Positions 49,013 to 63,913 of a stretch of DNA of 64,000 bases are shown in pieces. The translations under genes were made by a program, and so were the position numbers. Numbering within the stretch: the first letter of the stretch is position 1; every line of letters starts with the position of its first letter. Location: assembly GCF_003590145.2 (NCBI RefSeq), contig NZ_CP060436.1, forward strand, positions 1,832,001 to 1,896,000, written 5' to 3'. This stretch comes from Pseudooceanicola algae. GTDB taxonomy: Bacteria; Pseudomonadota; Alphaproteobacteria; Rhodobacterales; Rhodobacteraceae. The notes under the pieces are model-generated. The model saw only the letters and a program-made list of their open reading frames with translations, was not told the DNA's origin and made no database searches.

Positions 49013-49040
49013 ATCGGGTACTCCTTCTTGAGGGGGCGGG

Positions 49041-49715
49041 TCAGGCGCCGCGGTTGCTGGGCGCCCGCTTGTCCACGCGTCGGGCGATCCATTCACCGAT
49101 GGTCTGCACCAGTTGCACGAGGACAATGAGAATAAGAACCACGAGGCCCATGACCTCGGGCATGAAGCGTTGATAGCCGTAGCGGATACCGAGATCGCCC
49201 AGGCCTTCGCCGCCCACGGCCCCAACCATGGCCGAATAGCCAAGCAGGCTGACCACGGCAAGCGTCAGGCCCAGCGTGATGCCCGACAGCGCTTCGGGGA
49301 TCAGCACCTTGCGGATGATCTGCATCGGCGTGGCGCCCATGGACCGGGCGGCCTCGATCAGGCCGCTGTCGACCTCGCGGATCGCGTTTTCGATCAGCCG
49401 CGCGATGAAGGGGACCGCGGCGATGGTCAGCGGTACGATGGCCGCCGTGGTGCCGATCGACGTGCCGGCGACGATCCGCGTGAAGGGGATGATCGCCACG
49501 ACAAGGATGATGAAGGGCACCGACCGCGTCGCGTTCACGATGATGCCCAGCACCTTGTTCACCCAAGGCGCCGAGAGCAGTTCGCCCTTCTGGGAACAGG
49601 CCAGGAAGACACCGATCGGCAGCCCGCCAAGCGTGCCCAGCATCGCGGAAACGACGACCATGTAGATGGTCTGCCAGGTTGCCTCCATCAGCATGTTGAT
49701 CAGGTTAGCGGACAT
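49041..49715 (-). CDS. metI: Methionine ABC transporter permease
   Basis: 224 residues from ATG 49715 (GGAGG site inside metN; 11-base overlap with the metN stop). Five membrane helices of the BPD_transp_1 family with the coupling motif EAARSMGATPMQIIRKVLIPEA and the typical TRSVPFIILVVAIIPF segment (quoted pieces kept short). It dimerises to form the methionine channel driven by MetN. It is followed 28 bases later by metQ. Confidence 0.93.
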   Translation of the reverse strand: MSANLINMLMEATWQTIYMVVVSAMLGTLGGLPIGVFLACSQKGELLSAPWVNKVLGIIVNATRSVPFIILVVAIIPFTRIVAGTSIGTTAAIVPLTIAAVPFIARLIENAIREVDSGLIEAARSMGATPMQIIRKVLIPEALSGITLGLTLAVVSLLGYSAMVGAVGGEGLGDLGIRYGYQRFMPEVMGLVVLILIVLVQLVQTIGEWIARRVDKRAPSNRGA

Positions 49716-50766
49716 AGCCAAGGACCTCCGTGCGTTGTTCGTGCTGGCCAAGGAAGGCGCGGGCGGCGTCGGCGCGGTCCGCATCGACCGAAATCAGCAG
49801 ATTGCCGAAGGGGCGCGGACCGATCTCTTCGACGGCGCCGGCCAGGATATTGACGTGAATGCCCATTTCGGTGCCCATCCGCGCCAGCAGCGGCTCGGTG
49901 GCCTTTTCCCCGACGAAGGTGATGCGCAGCACTTCCTGCGCGGGGCCTTCGGGCCGGGTCTCAACCAGTTGGCGGGCGATGAAATTGGGCATCGTCACGC
50001 CGGTCACGCTGGACAGGAAGCTTTTCGTCGTGGGGTGGCGCGGCGCGGTGAAGACGTCGTAGGTCGCACCCTCTTCGACGATCCGGCCGCCTTCGATCAC
50101 CGCCACGTGGCTGGCGATATCGCGCACGACGGCCATTTCGTGGGTGATCAGAAGGATCGTCAGGCCGAGGTCGCGGTTGATGTCCGCCAGCAGCTTCAGC
50201 ACCGTCTGCGTCGTCTCGGGATCAAGCGCGGATGTCGCTTCGTCCGACAACAGCACCTTGGGCCGCGTGGCCAGCGCCCGCGCGACGCCGACGCGCTGTT
50301 TCTGCCCGCCCGACAATTCGGAAGGATAGCGGTTGCGAAACGCCTCCAGTCCGACGCGGGCGATCAGATCGTCCACACGGGCCCTGATCTCTGGCGTGGG
50401 CGTGCCGGCGATTTCCAGCGGCAGGGCCACGTTTTCGGCCACCGTGCGCGATGACAGCAGGTTGAAGTGCTGGAAGATCATGCCGACTTCGCGGCGGATA
50501 TCGCGCAGCCCTGCGGCGCCGGCGGCGCCGACGTCCCGGCCCGCAACGACGACCTGGCCCGAGGTCGGCTTTTCCAGACCGTTGACCATGCGCAGCAAGG
50601 TGGACTTGCCCGCCCCCGATCGCCCGATGATGCCGGTGATGGTGCCCGGCTCGACGCTCAGCGAGATGCCTTCCAGCGCCATGACATTGCCACCGCCCTT
50701 CTTGGGGAATGTCTTCCCGACCGCGTCGAAGGTAATGGCCGCTCCTGTCGTGGTATCAGTCTGCAT
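49705..50766 (-). CDS. metN: Methionine ABC transporter ATP-binding protein
   Basis: 353 residues from ATG 50766. Walker A GRSGAGKS, signature LSGGQKQR, Walker B VLLSDEATSALDPETT, then a C-terminal NIL/ACT-like regulatory domain (VLRITFVGEKATEPLLARM) that in this family binds methionine and causes trans-inhibition. First gene of the metNIQ operon. The leader upstream contains an intrinsic terminator and further hairpins, so expression is probably attenuated. A longer reading from ATG 50874 would overlap the leader structures and is less likely. Confidence 0.93.
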   Translation of the reverse strand: MQTDTTTGAAITFDAVGKTFPKKGGGNVMALEGISLSVEPGTITGIIGRSGAGKSTLLRMVNGLEKPTSGQVVVAGRDVGAAGAAGLRDIRREVGMIFQHFNLLSSRTVAENVALPLEIAGTPTPEIRARVDDLIARVGLEAFRNRYPSELSGGQKQRVGVARALATRPKVLLSDEATSALDPETTQTVLKLLADINRDLGLTILLITHEMAVVRDIASHVAVIEGGRIVEEGATYDVFTAPRHPTTKSFLSSVTGVTMPNFIARQLVETRPEGPAQEVLRITFVGEKATEPLLARMGTEMGIHVNILAGAVEEIGPRPFGNLLISVDADRADAARAFLGQHEQRTEVLGYVR

Positions 50767-51289
50767 TCCGCTTCGGGTGCCTCCGGCTGTTGCTGTTGGC
50801 GGCGGTAGACCGGAACCGCCGGCGAGGGGCAACCCCCCCTCGTGGAACTCTGGGAAAAGGTCCCGAAAGCCCATGAAACTGCGAATAAAACAGGCTTCCG
50901 TGATGAAAGCCCCGGCCTGTGGGAAACCTCCCCGCCCCTATGTCAGACGCTGCTTTCCCGGTTGCAGGGGGCAGCGATTTCGCCGTTTGGCGGCCATGGC
51001 GGACCCTGGAACATTGTCCGCCCCGGCCGAACGGCAAGAGCCTGGTTGCGCAAATTCTTCCTACCTCATCCACCAGAAAGCAGCCCGGGGCGCCTTCTGC
51101 AACGCTGCCCTATTGCCATCAGTTGACGGACTTCACCAGCCCGAACCCTAAGGTACCCCATCAGATTTCCGAGGCGTCTGTGCGCGTTTCCACGACTGGA
51201 GCCGTCGCAGCCCACCCCCCGACATCCGGCAAGCGAGAGATTGGCGGCAGGTGCAGACCATCGCCGGGCTGCCACAAGGGCGGCGCGGC
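50767..51289 (-). promoter_or_regulatory. 523-base metN upstream region with structured leader
   Basis: On the minus strand, before metN: a CGCTGC...GCAGCG stem (50947-50974 area), a terminator-like hairpin (50884-50911), then CGAGGGG-N6-CCCCTCG and GGCGGT-N8-ACCGCC hairpins close to the start. A 19-codon frame (MAAKRRNRCPLQPGKQRLT) lies ahead of the terminator and contains only its initiating methionine. The part beyond 51000, next to the M19 gene end, shows nothing I can name. Confidence 0.6.
50884..50911 (-). terminator. Intrinsic terminator in the metN leader (attenuator candidate)
   Basis: GGCTTTC-ATCAC-GGAAGCC (one G-U pair) followed by TGTTTTATT on the minus strand, 118 bases before the metN start codon. 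A terminator between promoter and first gene implies regulated readthrough. Confidence 0.75.
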
Positions 51290-52321
51290 CTACTGCCCCC
51301 AGGTGCGCTCCAGCGTCGCGACCCAGTTGCGATGCGCGATCTTGGCAATGTCCTCATCGGAGTAGCCCGCACGCGCCAGGGCGCCAAGCAGGTGCTGCAC
51401 GTCCGAGACGTCGCGCATCTGGCGGGCCATGAAGGTCCCGTCGAAATCCGAGCCGAGCGCCACGTGGTCGATGCCCACCCGCTCGACCAGGTAGTCGATA
51501 TGGCGCAGCATGACATCCAGACCCATCTCGGGATCGCGGATGCCTTCCGGATGCAGGAAGCGCACGCCGAAGTTCAGCCCGACCAGCCCGCCCGTGTCGC
51601 GGATCGCGTCCAGCTGGCGGTCGGTGGCGTTGCGGCTGTGCGGGCAGATCGCGAAGGCGTTGGAATGCGAGGCGACCAGCGGCGCATCCGAGATCGCGGC
51701 GATGTCCCGGAACCCGGCATCGTTCATGTGCGACAGGTCGACCATGATCTTCAGCTCGTTGCAAAGCCGGATCAGGTCCTTGCCTGCCGCGCTCAGCCCG
51801 CCGCCCAAGTCCGGGTCGTGGCCCATCACGAAGGGCACGCCATGGGCAAAGATGTTCGGGCGGCTCCAGACCGGGCCAAGCGTGCGCAGACCGGCGGCAT
51901 GCAGCACGTGGATCAGGTCCAGGTCCGGCGTCGCGGCCTCGATCCCTTCGATATGGAAGACGGCGGCGAAACTGCCGGCGGCCATGGCGGCGCGGATCTC
52001 GGCGGCGCTGCGGCACAGGGTGACTGCGCCGTTGGACTGGCGGGTGATGCGGTGCAGCAGCGCCGCCTGCGCGAGGGTCTGTTGCAGCGCGGCAGGCTGG
52101 GGCACCGGGGGCAGGTCGCCATTGGCGTCCAGCGTCTGGTCATCCGTGCTGACCCAGACGGCGCAAAGCCCGCCCGCAAACCCCGATGCCTGGGCGCGCG
52201 GCAGATCCACCTGCATGTCGGGCGCGCCTTCCAGGAACCGGGTCTCGGCCCCTGCGGGGCCGCGCAGCAGCTTGGACAAGACGTCGTTGTGACCGTCGAA
52301 GACGGGGATTGGGGCGGTCAT
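51290..52321 (-). CDS. Membrane-dipeptidase-like metallopeptidase (peptidase M19)
   Basis: 343 residues. Renal-dipeptidase fold with all zinc ligands: His11 and Asp13 (DGHND), bridging Glu125 (FHIEGIEA), His198 (DLSHMND) and His219 (ASHSNA), plus GSDFDG near 290. No signal peptide, so a cytoplasmic dipeptidase. Its ATG overlaps the stop of the isoaspartyl peptidase gene (ATGA), and it ends the ten-gene operon. M19 enzymes cleave a wide range of L-D and L-L dipeptides; here it probably finishes hydrolysis of the imported compound. The exact substrate is open. Confidence 0.92.
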   Translation of the reverse strand: MTAPIPVFDGHNDVLSKLLRGPAGAETRFLEGAPDMQVDLPRAQASGFAGGLCAVWVSTDDQTLDANGDLPPVPQPAALQQTLAQAALLHRITRQSNGAVTLCRSAAEIRAAMAAGSFAAVFHIEGIEAATPDLDLIHVLHAAGLRTLGPVWSRPNIFAHGVPFVMGHDPDLGGGLSAAGKDLIRLCNELKIMVDLSHMNDAGFRDIAAISDAPLVASHSNAFAICPHSRNATDRQLDAIRDTGGLVGLNFGVRFLHPEGIRDPEMGLDVMLRHIDYLVERVGIDHVALGSDFDGTFMARQMRDVSDVQHLLGALARAGYSDEDIAKIAHRNWVATLERTWGQ

Positions 52322-53277
52322 GGCTGCACCTCGTGGATCTCGTCATGGGTGGCGACGAAGGCGCGGCCCTCGGGGGTGACCCAGCCCCGGAACATGCCGG
52401 CGGTGTTGTAGGGGGCGCTGACCGCGCCGTTGCCGTCCAGCGCCACCAGCCCGGCGCCGACGATCCCCGTGGTCTGCGACGAGCCCGACAGATCCACGTG
52501 GACCACGTGTTCGGCGGCCTGCGACAGGCTTTCCCCCAGGTAGGAGACCCGCGCGGCGATCTCGTGGCCCACCACGTGGCGGATGAAGAATTCGCCCTTG
52601 CCGGTGCCCGAAACGGCGCAGACGCCGTCCCTTGCATAGGTGCCCGCGCCGATCACCGGGGTATCCCCGACCCGACCCGCCGGTTTGTTGGTATAGCCCC
52701 CGGTCGAGGTCGCGGCCGCCAGGTGCCCGGCCGCGTCCAGCGCGACCGCGCCGACCGTGCCGTGCTTCTCGTTCTCGCTGGCCTCTGTCCCGGCGGCGGC
52801 ATGGGCCTTCATCGCGGCCAGCGCCTCGATCCGCTTCGGCGTGGTGAAGTAGTCCTGCGGCATCACCTGCAGGCCCGTTTGGGCCGCGAAATCATCCGCG
52901 GCAGCACCGGTCAGGAAGACCGCGCGACCGTCCTTCATCAGGGCACGGGCGGCCCGCACCGGGTTGCGGATGCCGCGCGCCGCGCTGAGCGCGCCGGCTT
53001 CCAGCGTGGCCCCGTCCATGATCGAGGCGTCCAGCTCGTGAATCCCGTCCTCGTTCAGCGCGGCGCCGTGGCCGGCGTTGAAATGGGGGCTGTCCTCCAT
53101 CACCACGACCGCGGCTTCGACCGCCTCCACCGAGGTGCCGCCGCCCTTCAGCACCGACCAGCCGGCGGACAGGGCGCGGCCAAGATCCTGCCGCGCCTCG
53201 GCCCAGTCCGCGTCGCTCATGCTGTCGAGCGGCAGCACGCCGCAGCCTCCGTGGATCGCAAGTGCAGTGGTCGTCAT
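52318..53277 (-). CDS. Isoaspartyl peptidase/L-asparaginase (Ntn hydrolase)
   Basis: 319 residues. Starts with ALAIHGGCG and FNAGHGAALNEDG, both typical of the family, and has the autocleavage/nucleophile site HGTVGAVALD with Thr174. Maturation should split the chain before Thr174 into alpha and beta subunits. It hydrolyses beta-aspartyl dipeptides or asparagine. GMFRGW and GTGKGEFFIRH follow in the beta chain. It lies between the first HyuA-like gene (51 bases) and the M19 gene (overlap), indicating a role in the same degradation route, perhaps releasing an amino acid after ring opening. Confidence 0.92.
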   Translation of the reverse strand: MTTTALAIHGGCGVLPLDSMSDADWAEARQDLGRALSAGWSVLKGGGTSVEAVEAAVVVMEDSPHFNAGHGAALNEDGIHELDASIMDGATLEAGALSAARGIRNPVRAARALMKDGRAVFLTGAAADDFAAQTGLQVMPQDYFTTPKRIEALAAMKAHAAAGTEASENEKHGTVGAVALDAAGHLAAATSTGGYTNKPAGRVGDTPVIGAGTYARDGVCAVSGTGKGEFFIRHVVGHEIAARVSYLGESLSQAAEHVVHVDLSGSSQTTGIVGAGLVALDGNGAVSAPYNTAGMFRGWVTPEGRAFVATHDEIHEVQP

Positions 53278-53328
53278 GTCGCGTGTCCTGTTCTGATGCG
53301 GGACCGCCCGGGCCGGGCGGCCCGTTGG

Positions 53329-54867
53329 TCAGCCAAAGCTGATATCACCGATGACCCGCACGCGCACCCGCCGGGCGCCGCCGGGCAGGTAGGCGATGGG
53401 GATGTCCTCGACCTCGAGGACCTGCAGGCTGGCCTCATCTGCCCCGGCATCGATGGCGGCCCTGCGCGCAGCGGCCTCGGCCTCTGCCAGGGCCTGTTCG
53501 CGGGTCATGTCGGAAAAGACCTGGTCGACCTCGCCCGACACCTGCGCCATGGCCGCGCCCAGGGCATTGGCGACCCCCGCATTCTCGACCCGGATCACGG
53601 CGCTGGCACCCGGAACCTCGTCCGGGATCAGGAAGGCCCCGCCCCCCACCGCGATCAGCGGAACGTCTTCGGCCGAGGTCTTCATCTGGTCGAAGTTCTC
53701 GGCCACCATGGCACGGATCCGCGCCAGCGCGGTCTGCACGAAATCGGGGTCCAGATCGGCCACAAGCGCCGGGTCGCCCATCTCGATCAACCCCGCCGCC
53801 ACGGCGATGTCCGAGGTGGTCAGCGTCGCGCCGCCAAAGACGCGGGCGTCCTGCAGGATGCGGTAGCCGACCGATTTCGGCCCGATGGCGCCGGTTTCGG
53901 GATCGACGATCGTGCCGCCGCCAAGCGCGACCGGCAGCAGGTCGGGCATGCGGAACAGGGTGCGCACCCCGCCGATATGGACGATGTTGTTCGCCTCGCG
54001 CGGGAAGCCCCCGACAAGGCAGCCGATATCCGAGGTGGTCCCGCCGACATCCACCACCATCGCGTCGCTCAACCCCGTCAGGAAGGCCGCGCCACGCATG
54101 GAATTCGTCGGCCCGGAGGCAAAGCTGAACACCGGATTGGCCGCGGCCACATCCGCCAGCGCCACGGTGCCGTCGTTCTGGGTCAGGAAGAAGGGCGCCT
54201 GCAGCCCGATGTCGTCCAGCGCGGTCTTGAAGGCCTGCACCGTGGTCTTGCCAAGCGACTGCAGGGCGGCATTCAGCAGCGCGACGTTTTCGCGCTCCAG
54301 CAGGCCGATCCGGCCCAGGCTGTTGGACAGGGTGATGCGCGCCTCGGGGATGACCGAGCGGACGATCTCGGCAGCGCGGTCCTCGCATTCGGTGGTCAGG
54401 GGCGAAAAGGTCGCCGAAATCGCCACCGAGGTCACCCCGGCATCGCGGATCTTCAGCGCCGCATCGCGCACCTCGTCCTCGCGCATCGGGACCAGCGGGC
54501 TGCCGTCGTATTCATGTCCGCCATGCACCATGAAGATCATCGGATCGACGGCGCGGTAGAGGTCCTCGGGCCAGTCGCACATCGGCGGCAGGGAGGCCCC
54601 GGTGGGCAATGCGACGCGGATGGCCGCCACCCGTTCCAGCCGGGACCTTTCGACCACGGCATTGGTGAAATGCGTCGTGCCGATCATCACCGCGTCCAGC
54701 GGGCGGGGCGTGTCGTTGATATGCGCCGCCACATGGGCCAGCGCGGCCTTGACGCCGGACATCACATCCTGCGTCGTGGGAACCTTGATCGAGGCGATGA
54801 TGCTGTCACCGTCGATCAGCACGGCGTCCGTATTGGTGCCGCCGACATCAATGCCGATACGTTTCAT
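53329..54867 (-). CDS. HyuA-like hydantoinase/oxoprolinase family protein, copy 1
   Basis: 512 residues, shorter than the roughly 680-700 residues of ordinary HyuA. ATP-binding actin-like motifs: IGIDVGGTNTDAVLID at the start, SFASGPTNSMRGAAFL and VVDVGGTTSDIG in the middle, and VALGGGTIVDPETG later. It is clearly paralogous to the HyuA-like gene at 58764-60353 (about half of positions look identical by eye). The family opens cyclic amides with ATP. Its start overlaps the DUF917 stop (ATGA). No HyuB partner is present; DUF917 takes that place in both pairs. Confidence 0.88.
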   Translation of the reverse strand: MKRIGIDVGGTNTDAVLIDGDSIIASIKVPTTQDVMSGVKAALAHVAAHINDTPRPLDAVMIGTTHFTNAVVERSRLERVAAIRVALPTGASLPPMCDWPEDLYRAVDPMIFMVHGGHEYDGSPLVPMREDEVRDAALKIRDAGVTSVAISATFSPLTTECEDRAAEIVRSVIPEARITLSNSLGRIGLLERENVALLNAALQSLGKTTVQAFKTALDDIGLQAPFFLTQNDGTVALADVAAANPVFSFASGPTNSMRGAAFLTGLSDAMVVDVGGTTSDIGCLVGGFPREANNIVHIGGVRTLFRMPDLLPVALGGGTIVDPETGAIGPKSVGYRILQDARVFGGATLTTSDIAVAAGLIEMGDPALVADLDPDFVQTALARIRAMVAENFDQMKTSAEDVPLIAVGGGAFLIPDEVPGASAVIRVENAGVANALGAAMAQVSGEVDQVFSDMTREQALAEAEAAARRAAIDAGADEASLQVLEVEDIPIAYLPGGARRVRVRVIGDISFG

Positions 54868-55940
54868 TGGAATACCGATTCAAAGTCAATGTCATAGCCG
54901 AAGGCACGGGGACCGACAGCCGCCACGCCCGCGGGCGTCGTCAGGATCTTGGGCGCCGGCAGGGCCACCACGCTGACGCGCTGGCCATAGCGCACGGCCT
55001 CGGTGCCGATGGCGCCGCCCGACAGGCTGTCCAGCAGGCACAGCAGATCCGGGGTCATCGCCACCGGCACGCCGTCGCGGATGGCCACGGCCCATTCGTT
55101 CTGGAACGCCAGTTCAAGCGTCGCGCCGCGATCCGCGTCAATCCCCTCGATCACGGTCTTGCCGCGCAGGAAGCCGCCCGTGGTCGTGCGGTCCACATCG
55201 ACCACCTTGCCGCGAAACACCTGCTTGCCCTGCGCATGGTCAAGCACGGCCGCCACCGGGTCATCGTGGCGCGCGCGCGCGTCCAGCACCACGCGGCCAA
55301 GCGCGGTCGCCTGGGTGATCGTGTGGTGGATGCCCCAGTCCTTCACCTCGCGCCCCGTGCGGGGGGCCTTGCAGGTCGCGGCAGTCGAGCCGACGGCGGT
55401 ACAGGCCGCACGAGAGATCTTCTCCATCCATTTCCAGCTTTCGGCGCGGGCGACGATCACCTCGTTGTCGCGCACGTCCACCATCGACAGCGGGAACATC
55501 GACAGCCCGCCGATCGCGAAGGAGGTCATCTGCGCCTCGGGATAGGCGCGGCCCATGCAATCGGCATTCACCACCGGACGCCCCAGCAGCGCGGCCGCCA
55601 GGAAGGGCGACAGCGCATTGGCCCCGCCGATTTCCAGCGCCATGATGGCGCGGAAAGGGCGGCCCAGGTAATCCTCCATCAGCTCGACCGCGCGGGCCAT
55701 GTGGCGCGGATCCTTCAGGCGCTCCTGCCCGACCAGCGGTGCGCCCATGCCCGAGACCACGGCGACCATGTCGTCATCGGCCAGGTCCTCGGGCTGGATC
55801 ACCTGCACCCGCGCGCCATCGGCATAAAGGCGGCGCAGGTTCAGCGTCGAAAGATAGGGGTTGCCGCCGCCACCCGTACCCAGAATCCACGCGCCGGTGG
55901 CGAGGGATTCGATATTCTCTTCGGGAAATTCCTGGAGCAT
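54864..55940 (-). CDS. DUF917 (S-methyl-thiohydantoin-desulfurase-like) protein, copy 1
   Basis: 358 residues from ATG 55940. Glycine-rich ILGTGGGGNPYLSTLNLRRL near the start, GGANALSPFLAAALLGRPVV and CMGRAYPEAQM in the middle are diagnostic of PF06032, a family first called DUF917 and later named for S-methyl thiohydantoin desulfurase. It overlaps the HyuA-like gene downstream, so the two products probably form a complex or act in series. A strong hairpin lies between it and the binding-protein gene upstream. The reaction here is not proved; ring desulfuration or hydrolysis of a hydantoin-like substrate is the best guess. Confidence 0.85.
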   Translation of the reverse strand: MLQEFPEENIESLATGAWILGTGGGGNPYLSTLNLRRLYADGARVQVIQPEDLADDDMVAVVSGMGAPLVGQERLKDPRHMARAVELMEDYLGRPFRAIMALEIGGANALSPFLAAALLGRPVVNADCMGRAYPEAQMTSFAIGGLSMFPLSMVDVRDNEVIVARAESWKWMEKISRAACTAVGSTAATCKAPRTGREVKDWGIHHTITQATALGRVVLDARARHDDPVAAVLDHAQGKQVFRGKVVDVDRTTTGGFLRGKTVIEGIDADRGATLELAFQNEWAVAIRDGVPVAMTPDLLCLLDSLSGGAIGTEAVRYGQRVSVVALPAPKILTTPAGVAAVGPRAFGYDIDFESVFQ

Positions 55941-55963
55941 GTGTCTGCCTTGGCCTTGTGTCT

Positions 55964-55990
55964 GCCGGCCCCGCAAAAGGCGGGACCGGC
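55964..55990 (-). other. Strong intercistronic stem-loop after the peptide-binding-protein gene
   Basis: An 11-bp stem (GCCGGTCCCGC / GCGGGGCCGGC, one G-U) with loop CTTTT, 27 bases after the binding-protein stop, with no U-tract. Probably protects binding-protein mRNA and reduces downstream expression. Confidence 0.6.
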
Positions 55991-56017
55991 GTTGTCCATC
56001 GGGTCTGCTCGGGCCGA

Positions 56018-57610
56018 TCAGTCGACCGGGCATTCCCAGGTCATGGTCCAGAAGTTCAGACCCCAGCTTTGCATCGGGCGGAACTCATAGCCCTGCAGGC
56101 AGGCGTTGGCAGCGTAGCGGCGCATCGGGGCCACGGCCCAGACGGCCGGCTGCAGGTCGTAGATCTCCTGCTGCAGTTCCTTGTAGGTGGCGTTGATCTC
56201 TGCCGGGTCGGTCTGGTCACGCGACGTGTCGATCAGGGCGTCGATCTCGGGGTTCTGCAGCCATTCCATGGACCACCAGGTGCCTGCGGCCTTGGAATGG
56301 TACTGGTTGAAGAACATCGAATCCGGCGAAGGGTAGCTGGGGCTGACGTTGACCTGGGTCGAAGCCGGAGTCGTTTCCGGGCTGGAGGCCAGTTCGACGA
56401 TGCGGTTCCAGGGCTCGGGCCGGATATCGAGGGTGATTCCGATCTGGGCAAGGTTGGCCTGCATCAGCAGCGCGATTTCCTGTTCGAAGGCCAGCGAGGC
56501 GACGTAGCTGTTGACCAGCGTGATGTCTTCCCCGGCGTATTTCGACAGGGCCAGTTCTTCACGCGCCTTGTCGAGGTCATATTCCCCGGCCGGGAGATCA
56601 CCCTTGAAGGCTTCCTCGAAACGATCCGACAGGGGGCCGTGCATCGGCACACCGGGATAGATGATCTCCTGGATGGTCTCGTAATCCGTCGCATAGGCGA
56701 TGGCCCGGCGCACGTGAACGTCATCGGTCGGGTAAGTCTGGGTGTTCAGTTTGATCTGGAAGCCCCCGGCGGTGCGGGACTCGAGCAGCTTGTAACCCGA
56801 CATGCTGCCGATGGCCTCGAAGGTGTCGTTGCCGAGCCCGTGCGAGGACAGGCCAAGCTGGCCCTGTTCGGCCAGCGCGCGCACCGTCGCGTCGTCAGAC
56901 GTCTGCACGAAGCGGACCTCGTCGATGGGCGTGCCCTTGTCCCAGCCCAGGAAGTAATCCGGGTTGCGTTCGATCACCATGTCGGCCGAGCGGTTGTAGC
57001 TGGTCAGCGCATAGGGGCCCGAACCTGCCGAGTTGTCGCCGACGAAGGCTTCGCCATAGGGATCTTCGTCGGTCGCGTTGGCCTCGATCAGCGACTGGTT
57101 CAGGACCAGCAGCACCGGGGACGAAGCCAGGAAGGGCGAGAACGGACGGTTCAGCGTGATTTCGACGGTGGTGTCATCGGGGGCGGTGACGTTTTCGGGG
57201 TCGATCAGGTCGATCAGCAGGTTCGACGGACCCTTGTTGATCTTCAGCAGGCGCTGGATGGACCAGACCGCGTCAGAGGCGCCGAGCGCGCTGCCGTCCT
57301 GGAAGGTCACGTCGTCGCGCAGGTGGAAGGTATAGGTCAGACCGTCTTCGGAGATGTCCCAGGAGTTCGCCAGGTGCGGCACGATCTCGCCCGCGGGGGT
57401 GACCGTGGTCAGACCGTCGTACATGTTCACGGCCGCCATGTAGCCGGTGTAATCCGAGATCTTCGCCGGATCGAGCGAGCTGAAGATCTGCATCGTGTTG
57501 ACCACGGTCGAGATACGCTCCTGCGCAGTCGCCAGCGGCGCGGCACCAAGGCCAAGCGCCACCGAAAGGGCAAGGGCGGACAGCCCTGATTTGCTGAATT
57601 TTGCAGTCAT
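56018..57610 (-). CDS. Dpp/Opp-type periplasmic substrate-binding protein (SBP_bac_5)
   Basis: 530 residues with a signal peptide (MTAKFSKSGLSALALSVALG, cleavage likely after ATAQ/LATA). Mature part shows the family pattern MQIFSSLDPAKISDYTGYMA, VPHLANSWDISEDGLTYTFH and FQDGSALGASDAVWS. It binds peptides or peptide-like solutes in the periplasm for the two permeases and ATPase of the same operon. AGGAG precedes the ATG. It sits in the middle of the operon between the two DUF917 genes, which is unusual; such genes normally lie first, next to the permeases. Confidence 0.93.
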   Translation of the reverse strand: MTAKFSKSGLSALALSVALGLGAAPLATAQERISTVVNTMQIFSSLDPAKISDYTGYMAAVNMYDGLTTVTPAGEIVPHLANSWDISEDGLTYTFHLRDDVTFQDGSALGASDAVWSIQRLLKINKGPSNLLIDLIDPENVTAPDDTTVEITLNRPFSPFLASSPVLLVLNQSLIEANATDEDPYGEAFVGDNSAGSGPYALTSYNRSADMVIERNPDYFLGWDKGTPIDEVRFVQTSDDATVRALAEQGQLGLSSHGLGNDTFEAIGSMSGYKLLESRTAGGFQIKLNTQTYPTDDVHVRRAIAYATDYETIQEIIYPGVPMHGPLSDRFEEAFKGDLPAGEYDLDKAREELALSKYAGEDITLVNSYVASLAFEQEIALLMQANLAQIGITLDIRPEPWNRIVELASSPETTPASTQVNVSPSYPSPDSMFFNQYHSKAAGTWWSMEWLQNPEIDALIDTSRDQTDPAEINATYKELQQEIYDLQPAVWAVAPMRRYAANACLQGYEFRPMQSWGLNFWTMTWECPVD

Positions 57611-57640
57611 TTTTTTACTCCTGTTGGGTCGTTTATCGGT

Positions 57641-58771
57641 TCAGGCCGTCTGCGTATGTGCGGCAAGCGGCGCGAAGGGGATCTCGGGATAGCCGAAGGC
57701 AGCGGGGCCGACGACTTCCAGCGCCTTGCGGGTGCGCAGCAGGTCGTGACAGGGCACCGCAAGCACGGCAACCCGCTGGCCGTAGCGCAGCATTTCGGTG
57801 GTGATCGGGTAGCCGGTGTCGACGTCCAGCACGATGATCAGGTCGGGCACCGTGACCTCGACCTCACCTTCGCGGCGGAAGATCAGGAACTCGTTCTGGA
57901 TCGCGATGCTAGCCGTTTCGCCCTGGAAGGCATCAAAGCCGCCCAGTTCCAGGTCGCCCACCGCAAAGCCGCCCTTGAGGTGCCGCTTGAGGTCGGTGAT
58001 CTTGCCGGTGAAGACATGCCGCCCGCCTTCCAGCGCGCAGACCGTCGCCACCGGGTCGTCGCCGGTGCGCCGCGCATCCAGAACCGCCCGGCCCAGCCGG
58101 ATCGCCTTGGTGTAGCTGCGCGGGATCGCGTTGGCATGGACGAAGCTGGCCTGCATCGGGGCCGTGGCCAGCATTGCCGCGCCGCCCTGTGACACGACAC
58201 AGGCGCGCGCCATGCGCTCGTGAAAGACCTCGGTCACGGCGTTCTGGAAGACCACGCTGTTGCCATGCAAATCGCACATCACCGACGGGGTCGAGCTGTG
58301 CCCGTAGATCGAAAAGGTCGTCATCTGCATTTCCGGAAACGCGCGGCCCATGCCGTCGCAATCCAGCACCGGCAATCCGCCAAGCGCCGCCGTCACCAGC
58401 GGGTTCATCGCGTTCGCGCCGCCGATCTCCTCGCAGACGATCGCGTCGATCTTGCGGCCGGTCAGCTGCTCCATGCCCTGCAGGCAGCGCAGGCCCTCGC
58501 GGCCCTCGCGGATGCGTTCGGTGCCCACCACCGGCGCGCCGATGCCGCCGATGGACATGCAAAGCGCGTCCCCGGCGATCTTGTCGGTGGCCAGGATGGA
58601 CATCTTGTGTCCGGCCTTCATCGCCTCGCGCGTCAGCAGCTTGCCCTGATAGGGATTGCCGCCGCCGCCCGTCCCGAGGATCCCCGCGCCGACTTCCAGC
58701 GCGTCCAGATCCTCGAATGTCAGCTCCCACAGGTCGGCGGGATCATAGGTCAGTTCCGGGGTCTCAGACAT
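57641..58771 (-). CDS. DUF917 (S-methyl-thiohydantoin-desulfurase-like) protein, copy 2
   Basis: 376 residues from ATG 58771 (GGAAG upstream), overlapping the stop of the HyuA-like gene by 8 bases. Shares GILGTGGGGNPYQGKLLTRE, GGANAMNPLVTAALGGLPVL and CDGMGRAFPEMQM with copy 1. Differences include a longer N-terminus and a distinct middle (SQGGAAMLATAPMQASF), so the two copies may have different substrates or form a hetero-oligomer. Cytoplasmic. It is followed 30 bases later by the binding-protein gene. Confidence 0.85.
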   Translation of the reverse strand: MSETPELTYDPADLWELTFEDLDALEVGAGILGTGGGGNPYQGKLLTREAMKAGHKMSILATDKIAGDALCMSIGGIGAPVVGTERIREGREGLRCLQGMEQLTGRKIDAIVCEEIGGANAMNPLVTAALGGLPVLDCDGMGRAFPEMQMTTFSIYGHSSTPSVMCDLHGNSVVFQNAVTEVFHERMARACVVSQGGAAMLATAPMQASFVHANAIPRSYTKAIRLGRAVLDARRTGDDPVATVCALEGGRHVFTGKITDLKRHLKGGFAVGDLELGGFDAFQGETASIAIQNEFLIFRREGEVEVTVPDLIIVLDVDTGYPITTEMLRYGQRVAVLAVPCHDLLRTRKALEVVGPAAFGYPEIPFAPLAAHTQTA

Positions 58772-60353
58772 TTTCGGCTTCCATTTCTGCAAGGGCACCC
58801 ATCTCTCCCACGACCTTGACGTGGATGCGGGTGGCGTTTCCGGGCAGGTACGCGAGCGGCATGTCCTCGCGTTCGATGACCTCGAGGGTCTCGGCCAGCG
58901 CCCCGGCGGCGATGGCCTGGGTGCGGGCCTCGGCCTCGGCTTCGGCCAGGGCGCTGTCGCGGGTCACGCCGTCGGTCAGGCTGAAGATGCGGTCCGTCTC
59001 GCCCGAGATCTGCGCGATGGCGGCCCCCACGGCATTGGCCACGGCGAAGTTTTCCGGGCGGGTCACCTGCAGGTCCCCGATCCGGTCGGGCATCAGGACG
59101 GACCCGCCGCCGACCGCGATGACCGGCACAGGATCTGCGGAAATCCGGGCGCGTTCGACGCAGGTCTCGAACATCTCGGTCACCCGCGCGGCGGCCGCCG
59201 CGACCAGTGCGGGGTCAAGATCGGCCAGCAGGCCCGCATCGCCGATCTCGGCCTTGCCGGAGGCGACGGCGATATCGGTGGCCGTCAGGATCTGCCCCCC
59301 GAAGACCCGCGCATCCTGGCGCACGCGGTAGCCCACGGATTGCGGCCCGATCGCGACGTTTTCGGCAGAGCCCGTGACCCGCGACCCGCCGCCCAGCCCG
59401 ATGGAAAAGACGTCGGGCATGCGGAAGTTCGTGCGCACCCCGCCGATATCGACCGAGGTCGAGGCCTGGCGCGGGAACCCGTGCGACAGCGCGCCGACGT
59501 CCGACGTGGTGCCGCCCACGTCGACCACGATCGCCTCTTTCAGCCCGGTCAGGAAAGCCGCCCCGCGCATCGAATTCGTTGGGCCCGAGGCAAAGGTCAG
59601 CACCGGGAAGGCGCGCACCGTGTCGGCGGCCATCAGCGTGCCGTCGTTCTGGGTGATGAAGAAGGGCGCATCGACCCCGGCCTGCTCCAGCGCCTGGCCG
59701 AAGGCCCGCACCGTCTTGTCCGCCAGCCGCAGAAGCGAGGCGTTCATGATCGCTGCACTTTCCCGCGCCAGCAGCCCGTGGCGTCCGATGTCGCGCGACA
59801 GCACCACGCTCAGATCCGGGCATTCCTCTTGCAGGATCTCTCGCGCGCGCAGCTCCATCGCGTCGTTCACGCCCGAGAAGATGCAGGTGACGGAGGCGGC
59901 GCGGATGTCCTTTTCGCGGATCTCGCCGGCGATCCGGCGGATCTCGTCCTCGTCCAGCGGCGACAGCACGCGGCCGTCGAATTCATAGCCGCCCCGCACC
60001 TGGTAGCCGTGATCGCCGACGATGGCGCGGATATCCTCGGGCCAGTCGACCATCGGCGGCAGGCCCGCCCCGGCCGGCAGGCCCAGCCGGATCGCGGCCA
60101 CCGGGTCAAGGTGGCGCCGTTCGATCACGGCATTGGTGAAATGGGTCGTGCCGATCATCACCGCGCCGATCCGGGCCCGGTCGATACCGGCGGCCCCGAT
60201 CACCTGTTCCAGCGCCTCGAGCACGCCCGAAGTCACGTCCTCGGTCGTCGGAGCCTTGATCCCGGCCAGGACGGTTTTGCCCTGCAGCACGACGGCATCG
60301 GTATTCGTGCCGCCTACGTCAATTCCTACGCGATACACCTGGGGCTCCTTCAT
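58764..60353 (-). CDS. HyuA-like hydantoinase/oxoprolinase family protein, copy 2
   Basis: 529 residues from ATG 60353, whose first base is shared with the ATPase stop (TGATG). Actin-like ATPase motifs: VGIDVGGTNTDAVVLQG, TFASGPTNSMRGAAFL, VVDVGGTTSDVG and GLGGGSRV. IGTTHFTNAVIERR is shared almost unchanged with copy 1. Like copy 1 it is shorter than classical HyuA and has no HyuB partner; DUF917 follows immediately. Likely ATP-dependent opening of a cyclic amide such as a hydantoin. Which copy acts on which substrate cannot be told. Confidence 0.88.
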   Translation of the reverse strand: MKEPQVYRVGIDVGGTNTDAVVLQGKTVLAGIKAPTTEDVTSGVLEALEQVIGAAGIDRARIGAVMIGTTHFTNAVIERRHLDPVAAIRLGLPAGAGLPPMVDWPEDIRAIVGDHGYQVRGGYEFDGRVLSPLDEDEIRRIAGEIREKDIRAASVTCIFSGVNDAMELRAREILQEECPDLSVVLSRDIGRHGLLARESAAIMNASLLRLADKTVRAFGQALEQAGVDAPFFITQNDGTLMAADTVRAFPVLTFASGPTNSMRGAAFLTGLKEAIVVDVGGTTSDVGALSHGFPRQASTSVDIGGVRTNFRMPDVFSIGLGGGSRVTGSAENVAIGPQSVGYRVRQDARVFGGQILTATDIAVASGKAEIGDAGLLADLDPALVAAAAARVTEMFETCVERARISADPVPVIAVGGGSVLMPDRIGDLQVTRPENFAVANAVGAAIAQISGETDRIFSLTDGVTRDSALAEAEAEARTQAIAAGALAETLEVIEREDMPLAYLPGNATRIHVKVVGEMGALAEMEAENV

Positions 60354-61999
60354 CAATCGGTTGTTTGCACCAGGAAAGCGGCGCGCTCTTCCTGGCTGAC
60401 TGCGGGCTTCAGGCGGTCCTCGTCGTCGGTAACGACCGGGATCGCCGAGATCAGCGCGCGGGTATAGGGATGTTGCGGATCGGCAAAGACGTCCGGCGTG
60501 GCGCCTTCCTCGACAATCTCGCCGCGCAGCATGATCGCCAGCCGCGAGCAGAAATTGCGCATCAGCGACAGGTCGTGCGAGATCATGAAATAGGTCAGGC
60601 CAAGGTCGCGGCGCAGCTGCAGCAGAAGGTCGATCACCGTCTTCTGCACCGAGACGTCCAGCGCCGCCGTCGGCTCGTCCAGGATCAGCACCTTCGGATC
60701 CGCGGCCAACGCGCGGGCAATGGCGACACGCTGCTTCTGACCGCCCGAAAGCTCGTGCGGATACTTCGCAAGGTAGGATTCTGGCAGGCGTACCAGACCC
60801 ATCAGCTCTGCCATCCGCGCCGCGCGGGCGTCACCTGTCAGCCCGGCGTGTTTCAGCGGCAGCGACAGGGTCTGCTTGACCGTCCGCTTGGGGTTCAGCG
60901 AGGTGCCCGGGTTCTGGTAGACGATCTGTGCCAGCGGCCGCCCGGCAATGGGGGTCCCGTCCTGCGTGACGGTGCCGGCGGTGGGTTGCGACAGCCCCAT
61001 CATCATCCGCGCCACGGTGGTCTTGCCGGACCCGGATTCACCCGCCAGGCCAAAGATCTCGCCCTCGCGCAGGGTGATCGAGACATCGCGCACCGCGGCA
61101 AAGCGCTTGCCCCGGCGGCCGAACGACTTGTCCAGCCCGCTGGCGGTGACGATGGGCGCCGCGGCGCTGACCTGCTGCGTCTGAACGCGCGGGCCGTAAA
61201 GCGGCGGCACCGCCTCCAGCAGGCCCTTGGTATAGGCGTGCTCGGGCGCCTTCAGGATCGTGTCCACGGGCCCGGTTTCGACGATATCGCCATGGCGCAT
61301 CACCACCACCCGGTCCGACACCTTGCGCACCACCCCGAGGTTATGGGTGATCATCAGCAGCGCCATGCCCTCTTCCGCGACAAGGGTGTTGATCAGGTTC
61401 AGGATCTCGTCCTGGGTGGTCACGTCCAGCGCGGTGCCCGGTTCGTCCGCGATCAGCAGCTTGGGCTGGTGCAGCAGCGCGAGGCCGATCAGCACGCGCT
61501 GGCGCATGCCGCCCGACAGTTCGGACGGATAGGCGTTCATCACCCGCTCGGGGTCGGCCAGCTGGACCCGCCGCAACACGGCGGCGATCCGGTCGTGGCG
61601 CCGCGACCGGCTGTCGTTCACACCGTTGCGGCGGTCCGCGAAACGCAGCACGTCGTCAAGGTGCGTGCCGATCTTGAACACCGGATTGAAGGACGACAGG
61701 GGGTCCTGCATGATCAGCGAAAAGGCCGTGCCCTTCAGCGCGTCGCGCGCTCCGCGCGACATTTGCAGCACATCGCGGCCCTCGACCTCGACCCGCCCGG
61801 CGCTGACCGTGGCATTGCGCGGCAGCGTGCCCAGAATGGCCTTGGCGGTGACGGACTTGCCCGACCCGGTTTCCCCGATCAGCGAGACCCGTTCGCCGGC
61901 ACCGACCGTGAAGGAGATGTCGCGCAGCACCTGGTTGGTGCGCCCGTAAGCGGTGAACAGAACATCCAGCCCTGCGACTTTCAGAAGCGGAGTATTCAT
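60353..61999 (-). CDS. Dipeptide/oligopeptide-type ABC transporter ATPase, two fused nucleotide-binding domains
   Basis: 548 residues from ATG 61999 (GGAGGG within the end of the permease gene). DppD-like first half with Walker A GETGSGKS, signature LSGGMRQR and Walker B LLIADEPGTALD; DppF-like second half with GESGSGKT, LSGGQKQR and VLILDEPTAALD. Both sites look intact. The fused DppD-DppF arrangement resembles GsiA/YejF. It powers uptake through the two adjacent permeases. The stop shares one base with the HyuA-like start, so enzymes and transporter are tightly co-expressed. Confidence 0.93.
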   Translation of the reverse strand: MNTPLLKVAGLDVLFTAYGRTNQVLRDISFTVGAGERVSLIGETGSGKSVTAKAILGTLPRNATVSAGRVEVEGRDVLQMSRGARDALKGTAFSLIMQDPLSSFNPVFKIGTHLDDVLRFADRRNGVNDSRSRRHDRIAAVLRRVQLADPERVMNAYPSELSGGMRQRVLIGLALLHQPKLLIADEPGTALDVTTQDEILNLINTLVAEEGMALLMITHNLGVVRKVSDRVVVMRHGDIVETGPVDTILKAPEHAYTKGLLEAVPPLYGPRVQTQQVSAAAPIVTASGLDKSFGRRGKRFAAVRDVSITLREGEIFGLAGESGSGKTTVARMMMGLSQPTAGTVTQDGTPIAGRPLAQIVYQNPGTSLNPKRTVKQTLSLPLKHAGLTGDARAARMAELMGLVRLPESYLAKYPHELSGGQKQRVAIARALAADPKVLILDEPTAALDVSVQKTVIDLLLQLRRDLGLTYFMISHDLSLMRNFCSRLAIMLRGEIVEEGATPDVFADPQHPYTRALISAIPVVTDDEDRLKPAVSQEERAAFLVQTTD

Positions 62000-62000
62000 C

Positions 62001-62885
62001 TCAGCCCTCCATATCGAAGACGTCGCGCAGACCGTCGCCCAGCAGGTTGAACCCAAGCGTCACGTAGAAGATCACGCCCCCGGGGCAGAGCACCTCCCAC
62101 CAGAAATCCGGCATGAACTGGCGCCCGTCGGCCACCATCGAACCAAGGTCCGGCGTCGGCGGCTTGACCCCGAAACCAAGGAAGCTGAGCGTCGCGCCGA
62201 ACAGGATCACGAAGGCAGCGTCCAGCGTCGTCTTGACGGAAATCACCGAAACGCAATTGGGCAGGATCTCGCGGAACAGGATGTGCATCGGTCCGGCGCC
62301 CGCGATGCGGGCCGCTTCGATGTAGTCTTCCGAGGCGATGGATTTCGACACCGCGTAGATCAGCCGGGCGTGCCAGGTCCACCACAGCAGGGTGATGGCG
62401 ATCATCGCGTTGGCCAGCGTCGGCTCCAGCAGGTTGGAGACGGCCAGCGCCATGACCAGCGGCGGCATGGCCAGCATCACGTTGGTCAGCCCGGTGATCA
62501 GCCGCTCGGTCCAGCCGCCGAAATAGCCCGCGATCAGGCCCAGCACCGTCCCCACGGGCACCGAGATGCCCAGCACCCCGAGGACCAGCAAAAGAGAGAC
62601 CCGCAGCCCGAAGACCGCCCGGGAAAAGATGTCGCGGCCGACCTTGTCGGTGCCGAACCAATGGGTCGCATCGGGCGGCAGGTGGCGGGCGCGAAAGTTG
62701 ACCACGGCGCCGACATCCTGCGGGTGCGGGGTGACAAAGGGGGCAAGGATCGCGAAAAGGATCGCGGACAGGACGATCAGGCTGCCGATCACCGCCGCCG
62801 GGTTGCGGCTGAAGCGGTACCAGGTCATGTAGCCGGCGCTCAGCTCCTTGTTGGCTCCGTCCAGAGCCATGTTAATCTCGGACAT
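62001..62885 (-). CDS. DppC-type ABC transporter permease
   Basis: 294 residues, six membrane helices. N-terminal OppC/DppC-type helix and loop FSRNPAAVIGSLIVLSAIL, then HWFGTDKVGRDIFSRAVFG, the family landmark, and coupling loop YIEAARIAGAGPMHILFREI. One-base overlap with the DppB-type gene upstream and a one-base gap to the ATPase downstream. Forms the heterodimeric membrane pore for the peptide-like substrate. Confidence 0.93.
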   Translation of the reverse strand: MSEINMALDGANKELSAGYMTWYRFSRNPAAVIGSLIVLSAILFAILAPFVTPHPQDVGAVVNFRARHLPPDATHWFGTDKVGRDIFSRAVFGLRVSLLLVLGVLGISVPVGTVLGLIAGYFGGWTERLITGLTNVMLAMPPLVMALAVSNLLEPTLANAMIAITLLWWTWHARLIYAVSKSIASEDYIEAARIAGAGPMHILFREILPNCVSVISVKTTLDAAFVILFGATLSFLGFGVKPPTPDLGSMVADGRQFMPDFWWEVLCPGGVIFYVTLGFNLLGDGLRDVFDMEG

Positions 62886-63913
62886 CAGCTGGCCTCCTTT
62901 CGGCGCATGCGGGGATCAAGGATCGAGATCAGGATGTCGACCACCAGGTTGGCGGCGATGAAGAACAGGCCGGAAACCAGCACCACGGCCGTGACCGCGT
63001 TCAGGTCCTTCTGCAGGATCGCGTTCAGCCCGTAAGAGGCGAACCCACCCCAGGAAAAGACCATCTCGATCACGAAGGCATTGCCGATCAGCGAGGCGAA
63101 CTCGAGCCCCATGATCGTCAGCGGCGCGATCGACGACAGCTTCAGCAGGTAGCGGAAGATGATCACCCGTTCGGGCACGCCGAAGCTTTGCAGGGTCAGG
63201 ACGTGGTCCTTGCGGCGGTTCTCCAGCATGGCAGAGCGTGTGATGCGGGTGATCTGCCCGATCCCGGCCATCGCCAAAGCAATGGCAGGCAGCGCCAGGT
63301 GCTGAAGCGCACTGACAAAGACGTCGAACCGCCCGGCCAGCAGCGAATCCACCAGCATCAGCCCCGTCGGCCCGCCCGAAAACTGCAAGGCGTGGTCCAT
63401 CCGCCCGATGATCGGCCAGTCGCCGAAGTGACGCGCGGCCACCAGTTGCAGCGAGATGGCAAAGAGGAAGCTGGGGATCGTCACGCCGATCAGCGACACC
63501 AGCCGCCCGACGTGATCGACCCAGCCATCACGGAAATGCGCCGTCATGACCCCCAGCGGGATGGCCACGGCGAACATGATGATCACCGCCACCAGCACCA
63601 GCTCGACCGTGGCGGGGACCGTCTGGCCCAGGTCCGCCGTCACCGGGCGCTGCGACATCAGGGACATGCCGAGGTCGCCGCGGATGGCACCGCTCATGTA
63701 GGACAGGTACTGCACCCCCAGGGACTGATCGAGGCCCATCTGGGTGCGCAGGGCGCCCACCTGTTCCGGCGTCGCAGTCGGCCCCAGGGCCATACGCGCC
63801 GGATCGCCCGGAACCACGCGTGCCAGCACGAAGATCATGATCGACAGCACGATCATGACCAGCAGGAACGTGCCAAGCCGCGTCAGGATTGCAAGAAACG
63901 GATTTTGCTGCAT
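62885..63913 (-). CDS. DppB-type ABC transporter permease
   Basis: 342 residues. First helix LGTFLLVMIVLSIMIFVLAR and the DppB-type periplasmic segment VVPGDPARMALGPTATPEQV, then membrane helices with the coupling loop MLENRRKDHVLTLQSFGVPE. It is the first gene of the ten-gene operon visible in the window. Only 87 bases of upstream sequence remain to the right edge, so its promoter, or further genes of the operon, may lie outside. Confidence 0.93.
   Translation of the reverse strand: MQQNPFLAILTRLGTFLLVMIVLSIMIFVLARVVPGDPARMALGPTATPEQVGALRTQMGLDQSLGVQYLSYMSGAIRGDLGMSLMSQRPVTADLGQTVPATVELVLVAVIIMFAVAIPLGVMTAHFRDGWVDHVGRLVSLIGVTIPSFLFAISLQLVAARHFGDWPIIGRMDHALQFSGGPTGLMLVDSLLAGRFDVFVSALQHLALPAIALAMAGIGQITRITRSAMLENRRKDHVLTLQSFGVPERVIIFRYLLKLSSIAPLTIMGLEFASLIGNAFVIEMVFSWGGFASYGLNAILQKDLNAVTAVVLVSGLFFIAANLVVDILISILDPRMRRKEAS

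Follow-up and report, generated by a model that had tools for sequence, protein, structure and literature searches.

The closest described relatives of the system studied here are N-methylhydantoinase, 5-oxoprolinase and caprolactamase, enzymes of the two-subunit HyuA–HyuB and CapA–CapB type. Caprolactamase is ATP-dependent, with phosphorylation of the lactim expected of its alpha subunit, and in the available part of the same report some genes annotated as 5-oxoprolinase are suggested to encode cyclic dipeptide hydrolases (PMC6061476). Rhizobium sp. NA04-01 cleaves cyclo(Asp-Phe), cyclo(Asp-Asp) and cyclo(Gly-Phe), the responsible enzymes being left unclear in the part of that paper available (PMC3852281), and proteins of the DUF917 family are stated, in the available text of PMC11055893, not to have been experimentally characterized. 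Our study examined a 64 000 nt stretch of Pseudooceanicola algae DNA (contig NZ_CP060436.1, positions 1 832 001 to 1 896 000; hereafter the window), in which ten minus-strand genes at 51290-63913 include two short HyuA and two DUF917 genes, arranged in mirror order on one strand around a gene for a peptide-type binding protein. The operon may take up and break down small cyclic amides. Cyclic dipeptides (2,5-diketopiperazines), perhaps aspartyl-containing ones, are the most likely of these, a reading that we judge to have an even chance of being right. A broader proposal, to which we give a little less than even odds, is that short HyuA and DUF917 constitute a second class of ATP-dependent cyclic amide hydrolase, assembled separately from the HyuA–HyuB one and with HyuB replaced by a subunit whose fold is unrelated, and that the operon is a complete ATP-driven cyclic dipeptide pathway with two paralogous complexes of different specificity, joined from two modules.

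Domains of the ten proteins were called with Pfam and equivalogs were compared using NCBIfam models. All ten genes are open, without internal stops, and their coordinates place them from overlapping to 77 nt apart. The transcription order is DppB, DppC, ATPase, HyuA1, DUF917_1 (D1), the solute-binding protein (SBP), DUF917_2 (D2), HyuA2, IaaA and M19; loci carrying both HyuA/DUF917 pairs on one strand are referred to below as composites.

62885..63913, minus strand: DppB/NikB-type ATP-binding cassette (ABC) permease, the first gene of the operon (PF00528 and PF19300; first in 56 of 56 composite loci)
62001..62885, minus strand: DppC-type ABC permease (PF00528 and PF12911)
60353..61999, minus strand: fused double ABC ATPase, YejF/GsiA-like (two ABC_tran stretches and oligo_HPY)
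58764..60353, minus strand: HyuA1, short hydantoinase/oxoprolinase-A-type ATPase subunit (PF05378 and PF01968; predicted fold)
57641..58771, minus strand: D1, putative partner of HyuA1 (PF06032 and PF20906; D1 clade)
56018..57610, minus strand: SBP, peptide-type solute-binding protein, SBP_bac_5 (PF00496)
54864..55940, minus strand: D2, putative partner of HyuA2 (PF06032 and PF20906; D2 clade)
53329..54867, minus strand: HyuA2, short HyuA (PF05378 and PF01968; overlaps D2 by 4 nt)
52318..53277, minus strand: IaaA, isoaspartyl (beta-aspartyl) peptidase/asparaginase-2 type (PF01112)
51290..52321, minus strand: M19, membrane-dipeptidase-type metallopeptidase (PF01244, 320 bits)

Likely starts read from the translations are ATG 61999 for the ATPase (the Pfam run began one codon upstream, at 62002) and ATG 60353 for HyuA1 (TTG 60356 being possible); that of D1 is likely ATG 58771, with the 8 nt overlap with HyuA1 annotated in Alloyangia pacifica (GTG 58798 being possible). 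Coordinates, Pfam domains and spacing all bear out the ten-gene operon with paired HyuA/DUF917 genes described in the initial annotation, and pairwise alignment agreed with its call of paralogy for both pairs (55 % identity between HyuA1 and HyuA2, 42 % between D1 and D2).

Both HyuA proteins fall within the HyuA superfamily by their Hydant_A_N/Hydantoinase_A scores (152.2/107.5 bits for HyuA1 and 143.1/88.5 for HyuA2, against cut-offs of 25.2/22.9), with Hydantoinase_A matched only over the first 174-176 of its 291 positions in each. Across 33 HyuA sequences including both copies, G11, D13-A21, D279, G281-T283 and D286 were invariant; these columns are those of the phosphate-binding motifs, which are intact in both copies. 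The predicted model of HyuA1 (predicted local distance difference test, pLDDT, 90; predicted template modelling score, pTM, 0.88) found N-methylhydantoinase 9h03 as its best Foldseek match, together with the caprolactamase alpha subunit 6yra and acetone and acetophenone carboxylases; the query-normalised template modelling (TM) score to 9h03 and 6yra was 0.75. As modelled, HyuA1 is a protein that keeps the HyuA ATPase fold. The locus resembles HyuA–HyuB and CapA–CapB in HyuA fold and two-subunit logic, but its HyuAs are shorter (512 and 530 residues, compared with 649-732 in single-subunit relatives and at least 691 in solved relatives) and DUF917 stands in place of HyuB.

D1 and D2 are members of DUF917, i.e. 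S-Me-THD_N+C (PF06032/PF20906; 184/211 bits for D1 and 184/224 for D2, cut-off 27). A predicted model of D1 (pLDDT 93, pTM 0.91) was compared with the PDB by Foldseek and, among the best 50 matches, only the structural-genomics protein 2o3i fell below E 0.001 (TM 0.73-0.75). The idea of DUF917 as a hidden HyuB homologue was unsupported, as no HyuB-like fold match was obtained at this limit, which is not proof of unrelatedness. Thirty-three columns were invariant in 39 DUF917 proteins of the D1 and D2 types and of a third type, D1b, which is described below; 12 of these columns are Asp, Glu, Arg or Asn.

The partnership of the two families was indicated by their distribution. In 394 family genomes, of which only the best 3-5 candidates each were scored, thresholds were set at score gaps (DUF917 >200 bits, gap 227 to 157; short HyuA >440 bits, gap 446 to 128), and DUF917 and short HyuA fell in the identical 31 genomes, which favours our proposal; six more genomes held DUF917 genes of other types at 60-157 bits. 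A search of the P. algae genome found two DUF917 genes, both inside the operon, and five Hydant_A_N genes, two in the operon and three elsewhere. Tree distances of adjacent HyuA and DUF917 proteins were correlated (88 pairs, r=0.86, against a maximum of 0.08 in 500 permutations), as they were within loci where HyuA comes first (A>D; r=0.86, permutation maximum 0.39) and where DUF917 comes first (D>A; r=0.93, permutation maximum 0.64), part of the correlation being due to the shared descent of neighbours. Gene neighbourhoods of 80 pair loci, none of them a composite, were compared with those of 40 control stretches cut at predefined positions in 20 of these genomes; the pair loci were picked for their pairs and are mutually related, and several reference proteins come from these loci and are counted by construction. 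HyuB lay near four of the 80 pair loci (one of them the reference's own) and two of the 40 controls, and Pfam found none beside HyuA among the ten genes. The view that DUF917 occupies the usual place of HyuB is supported by shared genomes, by neighbourhood and by the lack of a HyuB-like fold match. If this is true, many DUF917 proteins, a family named after a desulfurase, gain a role as partner of short HyuA. Such proteins range from Lactobacillus plasmids to a haloarchaeon.

Strict adjacency of HyuA and DUF917 failed as a rule, as 5 of 119 DUF917 genes were scored as alone: D2 types in L117, L119 and L122, a gene in L208 that is separated from its HyuA by about 770 nt, and a divergent one in L222. 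The three D2 types stand isolated in class-level genomes that carry a HyuA2-type gene elsewhere, at 61 % and 59 % identity in two of them and only as two fragments at contig ends in the third (G727).

The mirrored gene order was examined using trees of the DUF917 and short HyuA genes in a sample of 80 loci that included 11 composites; the trees came from 'quick' searches and have some long branches, and the deep placement of the Haloferax and Paenarthrobacter rows is unsure. The 119 DUF917 genes stood right after HyuA in 49 cases, right before it in 38, second in tandem in 23, first in tandem in four and alone in five. The DUF917 tree (121 rows including the window's two) contained a D2 clade of 44 rows with a Shimodaira–Hasegawa-like approximate likelihood ratio (SH-aLRT) support of 100, of which 37 precede HyuA, four stand alone and three are the first of two DUF917 genes, and a D1 clade of 36 rows (SH-aLRT 89; 34 of these at 98), of which 35 follow HyuA. 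The HyuA tree (89 rows) was divided in the same manner: 38 rows formed a HyuA2 clade with SH-aLRT 100, 37 of them D>A and the remaining one alone, and 37 rows, every one of them A>D, lay on a HyuA1 side supported at SH-aLRT 90. In each of HyuA1, D1, HyuA2 and D2, the rows of the window and of the 11 composites fell into a single group of 12 (support 99-100). The nearest relatives of the composite HyuA1–D1 (L039-L044) are ordered LuxR, DppBC, ATPase, HyuA1, D1, D1b, SBP, where D1b is a third kind of DUF917, following D1, that the composite does not have; no HyuA2, D2 or M19 was seen in these six loci, although an IaaA-like gene lies upstream in L040 and a weak one further away in L044. D2–HyuA2 in turn occurs elsewhere without HyuA1–D1, often with a different Dpp transporter. 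Since HyuA1–D1 (A>D) and D2–HyuA2 (D>A) keep these orders where they stand alone, the composite is best read, from these sequence comparisons, as a join of two old modules, each keeping its own gene order, with D1b lost. Inversion of a duplicated pair was ruled out, as D2-type genes are D>A even by themselves and D1-type genes A>D, and recent tandem duplication by the identities given above and the two deep clades. The reversed order of the paralogues noted in the initial annotation is real, but it reflects two subfamilies in their own orders rather than a flipped pair.

The D>A order is not a mark of D2 only, as DUF917 also comes first in the pairs of Bacillota and Sodalis, in Paenarthrobacter (L223) and, for one of three DUF917 genes, in Haloferax (L221). 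The sister operons L039-L058 contain one HyuA and two tandem DUF917 genes; their second DUF917 proteins (D1b) form a group of their own and, in the rows aligned, retain the invariant residues, which hints at a hetero-oligomer. In the archaeon Haloferax mediterranei (pHME132, L221:5309-10137), one HyuA and three DUF917 genes lie behind a Dpp-like ABC transporter.

To assess conservation of the operon, named genomes were scanned with HyuA2; of 90 confirmed hits the 80 best were retained, giving 79 distinct loci. Coming from one such scan, these loci are near relatives, many of them from Rhizobium and Agrobacterium, and are not independent cases. Both pairs were found on one strand in 56 of the 79, and the core DppB-DppC-ATPase-HyuA1-D1-SBP-D2-HyuA2 had the same order in all 56, with one core gene doubled or split in three. 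Directly downstream (≤4 kb), IaaA was present in 42 of the 56, M19 in 15 and both in 13, so that at least one dipeptidase gene follows the core in 44, in favour of a dipeptide substrate. The carriers include Alloyangia, Salipiger, Pseudooceanicola and Acidimangrovimonas, and many Rhizobium, Agrobacterium and Neorhizobium. The annotated A. pacifica plasmid NZ_CP022191.1 carries all ten genes and a divergent LuxR gene in the same order, there under generic annotation names only. An arrangement kept in 56 of 79 named loci, together with this full copy, is not due to chance. The composite is common among the Rhizobium and Agrobacterium loci found, which may tie it, at the level of the genus, to the cyclic dipeptide-cleaving strain NA04-01 and counts towards a cyclic dipeptide substrate; the operon offers paired candidate genes for bacterial cyclic dipeptide opening in culturable rhizobia and roseobacters.

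The transporter and peptidase genes bear on the substrate class. Solved relatives of the binding protein include YliB (1uqw), DppA (1dpp) and AgaA (6hlx). IaaA matches Asparaginase_2 at 296.9 bits (cut-off 27) and aligns over residues 5-300, nearly its full length, with 2zak (218 bits), an Escherichia coli protein; its residue 174, corresponding to the catalytic Thr that starts the beta subunit, lines up with the first residue of solved beta subunits, for instance that of 1jn9_B. The specificity of E. coli IaaA is not assured, as the score on NCBIfam PRK10226 is below the cut-off (242.5 versus 567 bits) and equivalog status was not reached. M19 matches Peptidase_M19 at 319.9 bits (cut-off 26), and its closest solved relatives are 3ly0 and 3fdg (346 bits), Rhodobacter proteins; the alignment with 3ly0 covers residues 4-343, again nearly the full length, and the metal-ligand motifs are aligned.

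We infer the reaction, substrate class, division of labour and regulation of the operon as follows. The binding protein and the DppBC–ATPase transporter would carry the ring into the cell, where each short HyuA, as an ASKHA-type ATPase, would phosphorylate the ring amide carbonyl to activate it. The cognate DUF917, with no visible kinship to HyuB, would contribute the remaining half of the active site and carry hydrolysis through to a linear dipeptide, and the two diverged complexes may serve different rings, ring positions or stereoisomers. IaaA would then split beta-aspartyl dipeptides and M19 other dipeptides, and the divergent LuxR-type regulator probably senses the substrate. No Pfam or NCBIfam match of the ten proteins is to a family named cyclic dipeptide hydrolase. 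The import, ring-opening and dipeptide-cleavage route of the initial annotation is supported by genome evidence, not by activity, and without the desulfuration that it had included.

Among the pair loci, DppB was near 50 of 80 compared with 3 of 40 controls, which fits a peptide-like substrate. Two further loci count in the same direction. An overlapping DUF1177-PepE-D2-HyuA2 set was found at L123:1370-5743 (PepE 299.7 bits, cut-off 156), where a role for DUF1177 in the same pathway is possible. On plasmid pYJN5-3 of Paenarthrobacter sp. YJN-5 (L223:557-10594), an actinobacterium known as a degrader of iprodione, which is a hydantoin, DUF917-HyuA is followed by an NTF2 gene and then, as the second gene after the pair, by one annotated as membrane dipeptidase; a gene of the Asp/Glu racemase family lies farther along.

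Several observations weigh against a dipeptide substrate. Neither dipeptidase lies directly downstream in 12 of the 56 composites, and in the pair loci M19 was found in 3 of 80 (one the reference's own locus) versus 2 of 40 controls, with two reference sequences combined, and IaaA in 2 of 80 versus 0 of 40. As neither is clearly above background there, a firm link to dipeptidases exists for the composite only, and dipeptidases as a general partner of HyuA–DUF917 found no support in the 80 loci set against 40. A literature search, which reached few subscription papers, found no paper on short HyuA together with DUF917 and no published activity for any such pair. Annotated cytosine permeases adjoin distant pairs in Parageobacillus, Lactiplantibacillus, Limosilactobacillus (with HyuA cut short at the record edge), Sodalis and a streptomycete, and no dipeptidase was seen in the gene run of these pairs, one locus having an M15 metallopeptidase further on; this suggests that they act on hydantoin- or ureide-like rings. 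Lastly, two above-cut-off genes of the carbamoylase family TIGR01879 lie elsewhere in the P. algae genome, making an unlinked hydantoin route possible.

These points lead to the main rival, which we regard as unlikely: catabolism of hydantoins or cyclic ureides, in which HyuA–DUF917 would open rings to N-carbamoyl compounds, a distant carbamoylase such as those of TIGR01879 would finish, and IaaA and M19 would act on side products. N-methylhydantoinase is among the HyuA homologues of known function, and the cytosine permease class includes hydantoin permeases, so that such permeases beside the DUF917–HyuA pairs of Parageobacillus, Lactiplantibacillus, Limosilactobacillus and Sodalis and the HyuA–DUF917 pair of the streptomycete keep this route open. 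The racemase-like AroM was also near 25 of the 80 pair loci and none of the 40 controls. The gene clusters at cyclodipeptide oxidase described in PMC11055893 share DUF917, AroM (here near D2-type relatives), Dpp transporters and peptidases with our loci, and in the available text the authors take DUF917 as a hydantoinase by itself. A PF19585 search for cyclodipeptide oxidase in the P. algae genome gave nothing, but the control was silent too, so absence is not shown. Among the ten genes, however, Pfam found no carbamoylase or hydantoin racemase, the importer is of the peptide type and a dipeptidase gene follows most composites; the Dpp-type transporter and dipeptidases favour a cyclic dipeptide over a hydantoin. 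Distant pairs stand beside cytosine permeases, and we therefore read the pair as a general opener of cyclic amides whose substrate class is shown by the transporter, here a peptide-like class.

Salvage of isoaspartyl or aspartimide compounds, in which beta-aspartyl or succinimide small peptides (also cyanophycin-like ones) would be opened by HyuA–DUF917 and split by IaaA, is improbable. It would account for IaaA after 42 of 56 composites and for the overlap of PepE, an aspartyl dipeptidase, with D2–HyuA2 in L123, and in Shinella zoogloeoides (L226:7454-19062) a HyuA-DUF917-Dpp cluster adjoins genes for a cyanophycin synthetase and a Mur ligase family protein. Those genes are on the opposite strand and the synthetase was seen in this one Shinella locus read, IaaA was as rare in other pair loci as noted above, and the M19 family is in general not aspartyl-specific.

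Use of glutathione or 5-oxoproline, on the model of the E. coli cluster, whose gene order we take to be iaaA-gsiABCD, is very improbable. IaaA is present, M19 renal dipeptidases cleave Cys-Gly, and the GsiA and GsiB models match the ATPase and the binding protein, but at 414.5 bits (cut-off 1077) and 115.7 bits (cut-off 594), far under what Gsi membership demands. Pfam found no gamma-glutamyl transferase among the ten genes, and 5-oxoprolinases use HyuB-type partners, according to the available part of PMC6061476.

Desulfuration of thiohydantoins or S-methyl-thiohydantoins, which the initial annotation had taken up from the Pfam name of PF06032/PF20906 (S-methyl thiohydantoin desulfurase), is scarcely credible, and desulfurase identity for D1 and D2 was rejected on their scores, on above-cut-off desulfurases without HyuA and on differences at two residues. 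On NF058532/NF058529 (cut-offs 450/440), D1 scored 119.1/111.2 bits and D2 119.2/89.6, about a quarter of the cut-off or less, although the matches span most of their length and the family is the same. Above-cut-off S-methyl thiohydantoin and thiohydantoin desulfurases were found in two family members (L075:8851-9918, 551.6 bits; L076:7649-8749, 582.5 bits); unlike D1 and D2 they do not stand with HyuA, as neither these loci nor the matches scored in the genomes concerned (G101 and G114) showed a short HyuA. E124 and D148 of D1, invariant in all 39 aligned rows, are replaced in these two proteins by H/Q and A/V, respectively. Both residues are kept in L071, a third-type DUF917 without short HyuA, so they are no marker of HyuA pairing as such.

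Possible regulators were also observed. A divergent LuxR-type gene lies just outside the window (L003:1003-3447, G000:C1:1896002-1898446; 814 codons, C-terminal GerE domain) and would, by our own reading of its sequence, be LAL-type with a P-loop-like stretch. Genes related to it accompany 18 of the 80 pair loci and none of the 40 control stretches. Beside D2–HyuA2 in three loci (L109:7905-8999, L121:8313-9314 and L061:8217-9137), AroM is fused to a LuxR-type GerE domain, perhaps with the racemase-like domain used as a sensor.

An Rfam scan of the window gave no match, and promoter- and terminator-like sites were no more numerous than in shuffled sequence; one such terminator-like stem lies at 50912-50892, the number of these sites being not above that of shuffles. 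Genes similar to MetN, MetI and MetQ, as read from their translations, follow at 48239-50874 on the same strand, 415 nt past M19.

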